Shown here one piece after another: positions 2,682-26,460 of a stretch of 49,708 nt of DNA. Every line of letters begins with the position of its first letter. Positions within the stretch are counted from its first letter, which is position 1. Origin of the DNA: Bacillus sp. AFS055030 (GTDB taxonomy: Bacteria; Bacillota; Bacilli; Bacillales; Bacillaceae_G); the NCBI RefSeq assembly GCF_002574545.1, contig NZ_NUGT01000091.1:1-49708 (forward strand), in the 5' to 3' direction. The notes under the pieces are model-generated. The model was not told the origin of the DNA, did not search any database, and was given only the letters and a program-made list of their open reading frames with translations. Made by a program: the position numbers and the translations under genes.

Positions 2682-2862
2682 TACAATTTCCCCCATGAGT
2701 TTAAAAATATAAATTGTAAAATAGATTACTACCATCCTATTATTTATAATCTTATTTTATATTACACTAACAACTCCTATTTGTAATTTGGGGTAATTTT
2801 AGCATTTCTTATAAAAATTAAGCACCATGAAATCATTCTTGTTTCCAAATTCTATCTTTTAA

Positions 2863-3549
2863 TTATGCAAGTTCCAAAGGCAAATAAGCATATTCCCCGT
2901 CCCTAATAATTTCACACTTTTTAATGGAAATCGGATAGTTAAAAATCGGTCCATCTATCACGGTAGTATGGAACTCACCACTTTCTCCGCATGGATCAAT
3001 GCCCCGATCTTCAAGCTCCTTCACATATTCATGAGTTAACGTTCGTCCTAAATCTTCTTCTCGCATTCCTAACGTTAAGTTGACCGTTACTACAATCGTT
3101 TGAAACCCACTATTTATAAACTGGTCGACAGCTTCACGGTGATTCATTCCCCATAATGGCATTCCAAGCTTTAATCCAACATTTTTTGTAACCTTGTCAT
3201 GCCAACAATCTTGGACGGGCATATCGATGTCACCCGTTACTAATACATCTGCACCTTGATATTTTGCATTTTCTAATAGCTGGGAAAATACTTTTTCATA
3301 TTCCTGCCAACTCGCCACCCCAGTATATACAGGTAACCCTATTGATTCAGCTTGAGCTTGAATTATTTCAGGGGGCATTCCATGGGACCTAGAGCGCTTT
3401 CCTTCTTCCTCTAGCATAACGATTAATCCAAGTGCTTCCCCTATTTTCATAGCTTTATATAAAGCTAGAACACTATCTTTTCCTCCACTAAAAGAAGCTA
3501 TAAATCTACTTCCATTCGCATTATTTTTCCAGTTTACTGTTTCAACCAT
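2863..3549 (-). CDS. diphthine--ammonia ligase-like PP-loop ATPase (Dph6 family)
   Basis: The 228-residue protein has the PP-loop nucleotide motif SFSGGKDSVLALYKA (about residues 19-33) and the family signature DPCGESGEFHTTVIDGPIF near the C-terminus. This places it in the MJ0570/Dph6 group of adenylating amide synthetases. In archaea and eukaryotes Dph6 amidates diphthine on EF-2. Bacteria lack diphthamide, so the bacterial substrate is unknown and the usual product name is probably misleading. The fold and an ATP-pyrophosphatase chemistry are safe. ATG 3549 is the natural start. No neighbouring gene suggests a pathway. Confidence 0.82.
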   Translation of the reverse strand: MVETVNWKNNANGSRFIASFSGGKDSVLALYKAMKIGEALGLIVMLEEEGKRSRSHGMPPEIIQAQAESIGLPVYTGVASWQEYEKVFSQLLENAKYQGADVLVTGDIDMPVQDCWHDKVTKNVGLKLGMPLWGMNHREAVDQFINSGFQTIVVTVNLTLGMREEDLGRTLTHEYVKELEDRGIDPCGESGEFHTTVIDGPIFNYPISIKKCEIIRDGEYAYLPLELA

Positions 3550-4489: not shown

Positions 4490-5017
4490 TTATTTCTTTA
4501 CATAATGAAGCATCGCAAGTTGACCTAATTTTTCTACTTTCGTTAAAGTGTATTTTTGAGTAATGTCATCTCCAGTGTAAAGAGAGATTCCTTTTCCTAA
4601 AACAATTGGAGCAATCGCTAGTTGAAATTCATCTATTAAATTTTCTTTAAAAAATTCTCGTGCTAGATTTCCCCCACCTATTAACCATATATCTTTACCA
4701 GTTTGACTTTTTAATTCTTGTATAAAAGTTTTAATATCTCGATTTATAAAAGTAGCATATTCATCTGATCCGGACAAAGATTTTGAAAACACATAGTTTT
4801 TATATGTACGATAAGGATACTCCATATCAAATCCGCGAACGACGTCATATGTCGTTTTTCCCATTACAACAGTGTCAATTCTTTCTAATAGTGTATGATA
4901 GCCAGAGTCTCCTTCTACTTCTGTAGTTTCTAGCCATTCTAGGCTACCATCATTGTTTGCTATATATCCATCAATAGAAGTACCAATATATAATATAATT
5001 TTACGTTGGTTTACCAT
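4490..5017 (-). CDS. dihydrofolate reductase-fold protein (RibD C-terminal family)
   Basis: The 175-residue protein belongs to the DHFR/RibD-C family of NADPH-dependent reductases (YyaP/YwjB-like). It opens with KIILYIGTSIDGYIANNDGSLEWL, has VVMGKTTYDVV and the nucleotide-binding segment DIWLIGGGNLAREFF, and ends with PIVLGKGISLY. These proteins keep the fold but most lack demonstrated folate activity; some act on pyrimidines or are drug-marker-like. Start ATG 5017 follows AGGAGATTTTTT. It is monocistronic and divergent from the mini-ORF/EamA unit, sharing about 110 bp of promoter region. Confidence 0.8.
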   Translation of the reverse strand: MVNQRKIILYIGTSIDGYIANNDGSLEWLETTEVEGDSGYHTLLERIDTVVMGKTTYDVVRGFDMEYPYRTYKNYVFSKSLSGSDEYATFINRDIKTFIQELKSQTGKDIWLIGGGNLAREFFKENLIDEFQLAIAPIVLGKGISLYTGDDITQKYTLTKVEKLGQLAMLHYVKK

Positions 5018-5125
5018 AAAAAATCTCCTATCTTTATTTTTGAAGTTTTTTGTTCTTTACATATTCATTCATCTAATATAATTGAAAGTAACAATAATAT
5101 GCTATTTGAAATAGGGGGAATCTAA

Positions 5126-5242
5126 ATGCCTTTATCATCTATAAATCTATATGATTGGAAACCATTTTCAACATCACCGCCACCACCGTTTACTCCTGGT
5201 GTTCAAACAGTACTATATGAGCTTATATTAAAAACAGATTAA
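5126..5242 (+). CDS. 38-residue proline-rich mini-ORF, candidate leader peptide
   Basis: ATG 5126 has a strong site (AGGGGGAA, 5 nt gap). The peptide begins MPLSSINLYDWKPF and contains TSPPPPFTPG, with four consecutive prolines at codons 18-21 (5177-5188). It ends LKTD at TAA 5240-5242, 46 nt before the EamA start. Runs of three or more prolines are known to stall ribosomes unless EF-P acts. Its last codons (5220-5229) are the exact complement of 5253-5262, which overlaps a second hairpin abutting the next ribosome site. A regulatory leader is inferred. It could instead be an independent small protein; I recognise no family. Confidence 0.6.
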   Translation: MPLSSINLYDWKPFSTSPPPPFTPGVQTVLYELILKTD

Positions 5243-5282
5243 GAATCTGCGAAATATAAGCTGTTTCGTAGATTCGAAGGAG
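5220..5282 (+). promoter_or_regulatory. two competing RNA hairpins before the EamA ribosome site
   Basis: Stem A pairs AGCTTATATT (5220-5229) with AATATAAGCT (5253-5262), 10 of 10. Stem B pairs GAATCTGCGAAA (5243-5254) with TTTCGTAGATTC (5264-5275), 12 pairs with one G-U, and ends one base before the ribosome site GAAGGAG (5276-5282). The loop of B is the 3' arm of A, so both cannot form fully at once. Arm A lies inside the last codons of the mini-ORF. There is no T-run, so this would act on translation rather than termination. The ribosome site itself is not base-paired in B. Confidence 0.55.
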
Positions 5283-5288
5283 TAGACG

Positions 5289-6185
5289 ATGAAATCTAAA
5301 ATTCAATTCCTACTTTCAATGGTAATCTTTGGTACGATTGGCGTATTCATAAGATACATTGATTTAGCTTCGAGTGAAATAGCTTTATTGCGTGGTTTAA
5401 TTGGTAGTTTATTTTTAATAACATACATGTTGATCGGTAAGAAGAAATTATCGTGGGCATCAGTCAAAAATAATGTTTATATTTTGTTACTTTCTAGCAT
5501 TACATTGGGTGGAAATTGGATATTCCTTTTTCAAGCTTATAAATATACAACTGTCTCAAACGCAGCACTAAGTTATTATTTTGCACCAGTCTTTGTCCTG
5601 ATCTTATCACCATTGGTTCTGAAAGAAAGATTATCAACTAAGAAGTTAATATGTATTCTAATAGCTATCATCGGGATGATATTAGTTGTTTCAAGTGGTG
5701 GATTAAGCACAACTAGATTAGAAGATTTTATTGGAATTGGTTATGGATTATTAGCTGCTGTGTTTTATGCATCTCTAATGTTACTTAATAAGTTTATTAA
5801 AAATATGGGTGGTTTAGAAATTACACTGATCCAGCTTGGAACAGCATCATTTCTTCTTATACCTTATGTATTCATTACAGAAGGTTTCGGGATATTGGAA
5901 TTGTCAGTTTCTTCAATGCCATTACTATTCATCTTAGGAATGGTTCACACAGGCATTGGATTCTTGTTATTCTTTTCAAGTATGCAGAAATTAAGCGGAC
6001 AAAGCATAGCAGCATTAAGTTATGTTGATCCAATCACCTCTTTATTCATTTCAACTGTTTTCTTACATGAGAAAATGACAATTGTTCAACTGATTGGTGG
6101 GGCCTTGCTATTAGGTTCCACATTTATCAGTGAGAATCATTCAATGAAATTGTCTAAACCATTTTTGAAAAAAACAGCTAAATAA
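5289..6185 (+). CDS. EamA/DMT-family ten-helix transporter
   Basis: The 298-residue inner-membrane protein consists of two EamA repeats of about five helices each. Landmarks are an N-terminal MVIFGTIGVFIRYI, FAPVFVLILSPLVLKERLS closing the first repeat, and LSYVDPITSLFISTVFLHEKMT closing the second. DMT proteins export or import amino acids, drugs or metabolites by drug/metabolite:H+ exchange; the substrate here cannot be read. GAAGGAG lies 6 nt before ATG 5289, right behind hairpin B of the leader. A perfect hairpin terminator follows at 6192-6225, so the mini-ORF and this gene form the transcript. Confidence 0.85.
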   Translation: MKSKIQFLLSMVIFGTIGVFIRYIDLASSEIALLRGLIGSLFLITYMLIGKKKLSWASVKNNVYILLLSSITLGGNWIFLFQAYKYTTVSNAALSYYFAPVFVLILSPLVLKERLSTKKLICILIAIIGMILVVSSGGLSTTRLEDFIGIGYGLLAAVFYASLMLLNKFIKNMGGLEITLIQLGTASFLLIPYVFITEGFGILELSVSSMPLLFILGMVHTGIGFLLFFSSMQKLSGQSIAALSYVDPITSLFISTVFLHEKMTIVQLIGGALLLGSTFISENHSMKLSKPFLKKTAK

Positions 6186-23875: not shown

Positions 23876-24088
23876 AATAAAAAGCCTCTTTTCCGAGACG
23901 AAAAGAGGCAATACTAATTGGCTTTCGTCTCTTATCTACCAGAAAATTTCTTTTCTGTTGGAATTAGCACCGTGCCTTACTGAGCATTTAAGCTCAAGGC
24001 GTAAATAATACGCCCCATTTCACAATGGTATTACGGTCGGTTGCTGGGCATCGTCGGGCCAAATCCCTCCGCCTACTCGAAATAAGAG
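23876..24088 (-). promoter_or_regulatory. SAM-I (S-box) riboswitch controlling mtnKA
   Basis: Read on the minus strand: P1 CTCTTAT...ATAAGAG (24082-24088 with 23929-23935), the conserved GAGGGATTTGGCCC and GATGCCCAGCAACC blocks, and AAGGCACGGTGCTAATTCC. The expression platform is a terminator, GCCTCTTTTC...GAAAAGAGGC plus TTTTTATTTT (about 23874-23909). A competing antiterminator is possible between GAGACGAAAG and CTTTTCGTCTC. SAM binding should favour termination, lowering mtnKA when SAM is abundant. Confidence 0.95.
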
Positions 24089-26322: not shown

Positions 26323-26460
26323 ACTTTATTCAGAGTAGGTGGAGGGACCGAGCCCGATGAAACCCGGCAACCGGCTAGTTAACTAGTACGGTGCTAATTC
26401 TCGCAGCATTTGCTGGCAGATAAGGTGTAGGTAAACCTCTCCTTAGTGGAGAGGTTTTTT
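26323..26460 (+). promoter_or_regulatory. SAM-I (S-box) riboswitch controlling mtnWXBD
   Basis: P1 pairs ACTTTAT (26323-26329) with ATAAGGT (26420-26426). Conserved blocks AGAGTAGGTGGAGGGA, CCCGATGAAACCCGGCAACC and ACGGTGCTAATTC follow in the order of the S-box class. A terminator AAACCTCTCC-TTAGT-GGAGAGGTTT with a T-run ends at 26460, 30 bp before mtnW. Confidence 0.97.

Follow-up and report, generated by a model that had tools for sequence, protein, structure and literature searches.

A proline-codon leader ORF as a candidate translational attenuator of an EamA/DMT-family exporter in Bacillus sp. AFS055030

The gene of an EamA/DMT-family exporter in Bacillus sp. AFS055030 is preceded by a 38-codon leader ORF that probably serves as a translational attenuator (we put the probability of this reading at about 0.6): slow decoding of its proline codons would turn on the exporter, the substrate of which is probably a proline-like compound. 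The attenuator architecture is well supported by modelling of the leader RNA; the stalling, its signal and the exported substrate we infer. The window, i.e. the whole stretch of DNA analysed, comprises 49,708 nucleotides of contig NZ_NUGT01000091.1. The features discussed below are collected in Table 1.

Table 1. Features of the leader and the exporter gene in the window.
Feature	Positions	Strand	Basis
Ribosome site of the leader ORF, GGGGGA	5114..5119	+	Sequence; purine-rich site kept in relatives
Leader ORF, 38 codons, peptide MPLSSINLYDWKPFSTSPPPPFTPGVQTVLYELILKTD	5126..5242	+	23 distinct long leaders including the window
Pro codons 18-21 (CCG CCA CCA CCG), predicted slow site	5177..5188	+	Pro run with synonymous codon changes in relatives
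Anti-ribosome-site TTTACTCCT, codons 22-24, pairs with 5278-5286	5189..5197	+	Minimum-energy fold, pair counts, ribosome-position computation and shuffles
Arm A AGCTTATATT, end of the leader ORF, complementary to 5253-5262	5220..5229	+	Sequence; pair counts; CTT ATA codons in 23/23
Palindrome CAGATT-AAG-AATCTG spanning the leader stop codon	5235..5249	+	Sequence; kept in most relatives
12-bp stem, 5' arm	5243..5254	+	99.3% of cells paired, 25 rows; standard changes to G-U only
Loop plus arm end, complementary to 5220-5229	5253..5262	+	Sequence, pair counts
12-bp stem, 3' arm	5264..5275	+	Same pairing table as 5' arm
Exporter ribosome site and spacer AGGAGTAGA, predicted to be sequestered by 5189-5197	5278..5286	+	Minimum-energy fold, ribosome-position computation, pair counts
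EamA/DMT-family exporter, 298 aa	5289..6185	+	Pfam EamA, 1.4e-37

Leader ORF and fold of its RNA

The leader ORF opens with ATG at 5126, ends with the stop codon at 5240-5242 and encodes a peptide with the STSPPPPF motif. Sequence comparison demonstrates that it is conserved together with its ribosome site, with synonymous variation, and that it stands in cis before the exporter. Within its own genome the leader of the window is the sole match at E up to 10. A TATAAT hexamer was noticed by eye at 5077-5082; it is absent from the promoter-scan listing.

The coordinates proposed in the first-pass annotation all hold: the 38-codon ORF, the four prolines and both pairings were re-checked on the sequence, the ORF end (5220-5229) being the exact reverse complement of 5253-5262 (10/10) and the second stem (5243-5254/5264-5275) consisting of 12 pairs with one G-U. 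The 221-base leader is more stable than its dinucleotide shuffles (z -2.56; 3 of 200 shuffles equal it). Its minimum-energy fold contains a further helix, 5189-5197/5278-5286 (9/9 pairs, one G-U), formed by the codons directly 3' of CCG CCA CCA CCG and by the ribosome site of the exporter; this pairing encloses the 12-bp stem.

In the modelled RNA the gate is this long-range pairing of the post-PPPP codons with the exporter ribosome site and not a choice between two hairpins. The first-pass proposal that ribosome position decides the fold is thus retained as proline-peptide attenuation, and 23 distinct leaders have both the peptide and the stems, but the predicted gate is 5189-5197/5278-5286 instead of the two hairpins named there. 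The same annotation had cautioned that the exporter ribosome site is only adjacent to the second stem. It is indeed adjacent, but the site itself pairs with 5189-5197 in the minimum-energy fold, and since this helix is predicted to hold the site shut, the caveat is answered. Mutual exclusivity of the two stems fared less well: most relatives retain the 5220-5229/5253-5262 pairing, but it interleaves with the 12-bp stem in pseudoknot order, and strict exclusivity is not supported.

A search of the leader against Rfam gave zero families at the gathering score, and identification with a known riboswitch, a T-box or another Rfam family was set aside. Terminator-based transcription attenuation was rejected as well, as no intrinsic-terminator-like site was found in the 5' region and the exporter start (4950-5330). 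Elsewhere in the window there are two SAM riboswitches, at 23929-24088 (-) and 26323-26426 (+), about 2.2 kb apart on opposite strands.

Ribosome position and the exporter ribosome site

A blocked ribosome footprint was moved codon by codon along each of the 23 distinct long leaders, and at every position we computed the cost of opening the exporter ribosome site. On average this cost is 7.7 kcal/mol for the ribosome-free RNA and 7.8 kcal/mol with a ribosome before the prolines; it falls to 2.3-2.5 kcal/mol with the P site on PPP and amounts to 6.7 kcal/mol with a ribosome near the stop codon. With the ribosome on the prolines the cost drops by at least 2 kcal/mol in 22 of the 23 leaders. In 18 leaders the codon where the drop starts is Ser17, in two it is the first proline, and in one each it is the second proline, Thr16 and Lys12; the leader where it starts at Thr16 is a three-proline leader. 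In three leaders (L113, L120 and L121) the exporter site is fairly open also with the ribosome near the stop codon.

The relief at the prolines amounts to 5.4 kcal/mol for the real ORFs and 0.15 (sd 0.70) for shuffled ones, and 22 of 23 leaders exceed all 20 of their own shuffled ORFs (0/20 reach the real value), the 23 leaders being related and not mutually independent. Sequestration at rest together with release by a leader-stopped ribosome is found computationally in 22 of the 23.

Conservation of the long leader

Besides the window, 22 other long leaders share the peptide, the stem and the exporter start. The set of 23, drawn from the profile-search loci described below and from the named genomes, was gathered by a pattern requiring PPP and the exporter start, so that decayed leaders (e.g. 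L053) fall outside the count; L001 (the same as the window), L086 (missed by the pattern) and exact duplicates were removed. A peptide-profile search, which does not require the prolines, found PPP in 19/19 long-leader loci, and the exporter start lies directly 3' of the leader in all 19 strong profile matches, independently of the PPP pattern. This search detected the leader in 4/19 genomes of the family and in 15/43 genomes of a second family. In the order it gave matches in 16/397 genomes at E up to 0.01, of which seven were strong; the matches at E 7e-4 to 0.01 concern the other nine, and the six inspected have no leader-like context and are attributed to chance (inspection covered all of the nine but L045-L047).

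Conservation of PPPP, proposed as a check by the first-pass annotation, is borne out: there are four prolines in 21 of the 23 long leaders and three in the other two. The residues K..STS 5' of the prolines are conserved, the Thr16 codon being ACA in 20 leaders and ACT in three. The Thr codon two places 3' of the prolines is ACT in 22 of 23 (the remaining one is a three-proline leader with a one-codon shift), and the arm A codons CTT ATA are invariant (23/23). At the nucleotide level there is hardly any variation in codons 22-23 or in the 3' part of the leader; few changes are found from arm A to the exporter start, while the exporters diverge up to ~40%.

Covariation, also suggested as a check, was found in part. 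In the arm A/loop pairing all but one of the 9 pairs are standard in 23 or more of the 25 rows, and arm end and loop are altered together in six rows. Across the 25 rows 99.3% of the cells of the 12-bp stem are paired, but its seven variable pairs change only to G-U and no double change occurs.

Peptide and stems, the separate loss of which the first-pass annotation would have counted against its proposal, are kept together in the 23 leaders, but the stem outlasts the peptide in two decaying Psychrobacillus copies read by eye. In P. antarcticus (L053) the ORF carries an in-frame stop and has lost the proline run, and the match of arm A to the loop has gone too, the 12-bp stem being mostly retained. 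In Psychrobacillus sp. OK028 (L055) the stem arms persist and a Pro-Pro ORF was not found. The loss of the peptide and that of the stem are thus not strictly coupled.

A second type of leader

Distant exporter relatives carry a shorter leader. Such a leader was found in 22 of 48 named exporter loci by a pattern requiring PP; it has 11 or 13 residues in 21 of them and 22 residues in one, and it sits 135-178 bases 5' of the exporter match. The peptide is typically M...IAPP.. with variants such as VAPP, ISPP and IDPP, and the genera are Paenibacillus, Lysinibacillus, Alicyclobacillus, Siminovitchia and Heyndrickxia. The RNA consists of four segments: segment 1 (leader end and stop codon) pairs with 2 and segment 3 with 4, helix 3:4 adjoining and partly overlapping the ribosome site, and segment 2 can pair with 3 instead. 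In helices 1:2 and 3:4 together, 94.4% of cells are paired and 14 are double-changed (0/500 shuffles), the number of double-changed pairs (2) not being above shuffles (308/500). In helix 2:3 the paired fraction is 92.6%, and three of its pairs show compensatory changes, found in L061, L073 and L094 (0/500 shuffles).

Blocking by the ribosome lowers the opening cost by at least 1 kcal/mol in 13 of 22 short leaders, and no drop is seen in six. The mean relief is 2.0 vs 0.31 (sd 1.18) for shuffles, several leaders being matched by most of their shuffles.

A covariance model of the short leader (R2) found it in 3/398 genomes of the class and, in three families, in 1/11, 10/200 and 5/344 genomes. 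The exporter lies directly 3' in 16/16 loci found by R2 (two with gaps inside the exporter), and PP is present in 16/16, where the script looked for a PP peptide. The window leader gives 5.7 bits (other strand) and 4.7 bits at best with R2, i.e. no match. As R2 does not recognise it, a common origin of the two leader types is unsupported and was set aside; the sole sign of one, noticed by eye, is the short arm AATCTRC...GYAGATT common to both. By sequence, the long and short leaders appear as two quite different peptides that share mainly the proline run.

Exporter, LysR exchange and neighboring genes

The exporter scores 129.5 bits against PF00892 (cut-off 28.2), and all its matches to NCBIfam models (e.g. 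carboxylate/amino acid/amine transporter) are below cut-off. Its closest relative among named genomes is that of Gottfriedia luciferensis (90% identical; records of the window genome are possibly omitted from this comparison). Two decaying exporter copies were noticed in the genus of the window, one with a 111-residue match and one stop (G012:C34:60661-60993) and one with two stops (L008, 1501-2091). Exporter relatives are found in nine plasmid records; in the two of these in which the upstream DNA was read, both from Priestia, no leader is present. Phages gave no match by blastn.

The 48 named loci comprise nine with a long leader, 22 with a short one and 17 without any. A leader alone is present in 30 loci, a divergent LysR gene alone in 11, both in one and neither in six; the divergent LysR genes of the 11 loci are 64-70% identical to the Priestia LysR. 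The locus with both, in Paenibacillus sp. XY044 (L073), has the divergent LysR gene at 1824-2687 and an intact short leader at 2847-3000. In the exporter tree, loci of the LysR type occur within the long-leader clade as well as within the short-leader clade, and the starred branches force at least three changes of label; this is a quick tree with 30 of 68 inner branches open, from which L095, L096 and L111 were omitted (no or short alignment). Two LysR loci (L070 2806-3003 and L129 1306-1503) retain the 3' part of a short leader (E 0.0035), likely a fossil of the exchange between leader and LysR regulator, as judged from sequence similarity. A weaker remnant is seen in L090 (E 0.46).

Several of the leaderless orthologues with a LysR gene, in both leader clades, adjoin genes of proline metabolism or tRNA editing. 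The gene order is LysR, editing protein, proB and exporter on a Priestia plasmid; exporter, editing protein and proB in Clostridium thailandense; and exporter, ornithine cyclodeaminase and proB in C. puniceum. LysR-type loci of Neobacillus and Paenibacillus have the editing protein followed by the exporter. On a second plasmid, from Priestia megaterium (L123, 2879-2986), proB is truncated, only its first 36 residues matching between the editing gene and the exporter. In L127 the sequence 5' of the exporter contains, by eye, short segments similar to the beginnings of editing protein and proB, as if the operon had decayed. The editing protein carries the tRNA_edit domain PF04073 and is annotated as prolyl-tRNA-synthetase-associated or YbaK/EbsC. 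In the remaining LysR-type loci no editing protein, proB or ornithine cyclodeaminase was found in the adjoining DNA examined. Leader loci contain no relative of these three proteins in the DNA searched, and their link to proline is therefore made through the orthology of their exporters.

To be protected against a proline analogue, a cell would be expected to need a supply of proline, editing of tRNA-Pro and export. In the available part of PMC7658068, a variant of gamma-glutamyl kinase is among the yeast mutants that resist azetidine-2-carboxylate.

Proposed mechanism and alternatives

At rest, codons 22-24 are computed to pair with the exporter ribosome site and would keep it shut. A ribosome that has the PPPP codons in its P site would mask the TTTACTCCT strand, and the exporter site would be freed. 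Every leader ribosome would open the site briefly, from about codon 17 to codon 28, and slow prolines would prolong the very start of this interval. If tRNA-Pro is uncharged or charged with an analogue, or if the help of EF-P is too weak, the ribosome would dwell there, the exporter would be translated and the offending compound, most likely a proline-like toxic metabolite, removed. When the ribosome reaches the stop codon, the site would reclose in most leaders. In distant orthologues the same logic is predicted with the IAPP-type peptide and the four-segment RNA; other orthologues appear to have a LysR regulator in place of the leader, some together with proline-protection genes. Sensing of EF-P or proline status, considered already in the first-pass annotation, appears strengthened because proline genes adjoin leaderless orthologues.

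A tentative extension goes further and sees in the leader a proline-fidelity alarm that may read the cargo of tRNA-Pro as well as its charging: an analogue built into the peptide would stall the ribosome and thereby unlock its own exporter. Exporter, tRNA editing, proB and ornithine cyclodeaminase might then form a dispersed analogue-resistance module under two proline leaders or LysR. According to the available part of PMC7934785, (4S)-fluoroproline stalls ribosomes on oligoproline more than proline does and (4R)-fluoroproline relieves stalling, so that analogues differ in effect. Proline codons of mgtP in Salmonella respond to tRNA-Pro charging (PMC3641672, as far as its available part goes).

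It is rather improbable that a shortage of EF-P or of its modification is what turns on the exporter, in a general reaction to slow synthesis of polyproline that has nothing to do with proline analogues. In 21 of 23 leaders the predicted opening starts at Ser17 or at one of the first two prolines, which would fit this, as would PPPP and APP, which we take to be EF-P-type motifs; the proline genes adjoining leaderless orthologues are left unexplained, however, and none of the 13 neighbor proteins scanned is EF-P or an EF-P-modification protein. The passage on EF-P in the available part of PMC7934785 also speaks for such a response.

Unlikely, too, is a drug sensor of the erm/cat kind, in which a ribosome-targeting antibiotic would arrest the leader ribosome, the exporter would pump the drug and Pro-Pro would be a mere weak point. 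The DMT superfamily includes drug exporters, and an arrest peptide would agree with the patchy accessory distribution (4/19 genomes of the family, 5/344, 15/43) and with the conserved K..STS 5' of the prolines. Among scanned neighbors there is a gene of an APH-family phosphotransferase downstream of the exporter in L088, a LysR-type locus, and a MarR gene downstream in L073. However, several leaderless orthologues adjoin tRNA-editing, proB or ornithine cyclodeaminase genes, and the two quite different peptides have mainly the proline run in common.

That the leader peptide itself has a function, in trans or as a small protein associated with the membrane, and that the RNA structure is incidental, is very improbable: the residues of the peptide are conserved with synonymous variation, but codons 22-23 and the 3' part are almost frozen as nucleotides, the computed gate is position-specific and the peptide differs between the two leader types.

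Comparison with known systems

The attenuators of erm and cat genes consist of a leader ORF and a sequestered ribosome site that is opened depending on the ribosome, with four-segment logic, and their inducers are ribosome-targeting drugs. A leader ORF and ribosome-dependent opening of the site are predicted here too, with four-segment logic in the short type. In contrast to erm/cat, the feature shared by the peptides here is the proline run, and the genes adjoining leaderless orthologues concern proline. MsrDL resembles the present case in that a drug-dependent arrest peptide controls a resistance gene, msrD; as described in the available part of PMC10314930, it differs in being macrolide-dependent and in working on a Rho-independent terminator.

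In mgtP and mgtL of Salmonella (mgtCBR and mgtA) a short leader ORF likewise contains consecutive Pro codons, and their decoding rate selects between RNA folds before a transporter gene (available part of PMC3641672). The likeness seen is one of design; these leaders act by transcription attenuation on Mg2+ transporter genes in enterobacteria (same source, same part), whereas the window leader lacks a terminator-like site, has a predicted sequestered exporter ribosome site and precedes an EamA-family gene in Bacillota. A relative of the YbaK/ProXp-type tRNA-Pro editing proteins, with the tRNA_edit domain (PF04073), is encoded beside some leaderless orthologues and may clear a mischarged tRNA; known members of this type clear Cys- or Ala-tRNA-Pro (PMC10164551, available part). 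Judged by titles and the first lines of abstracts, the literature searched, which mostly leaves subscription papers and preprints outside its coverage, contains no description of an EamA exporter with such a proline leader.

Implications

If the proposed mechanism is true, Bacillota would have a translational switch that is specific for proline and is found, with two different peptides, before exporters of a single family. A lead to the function of this exporter would follow, i.e. protection from proline-like compounds or from mischarging of tRNA-Pro, and the leader would be a reporter, provided by nature, of EF-P activity, of stalling at polyproline and of proline analogues. Finally, one could test directly whether what bacteria sense is an incorrectly built nascent peptide and not an uncharged tRNA.
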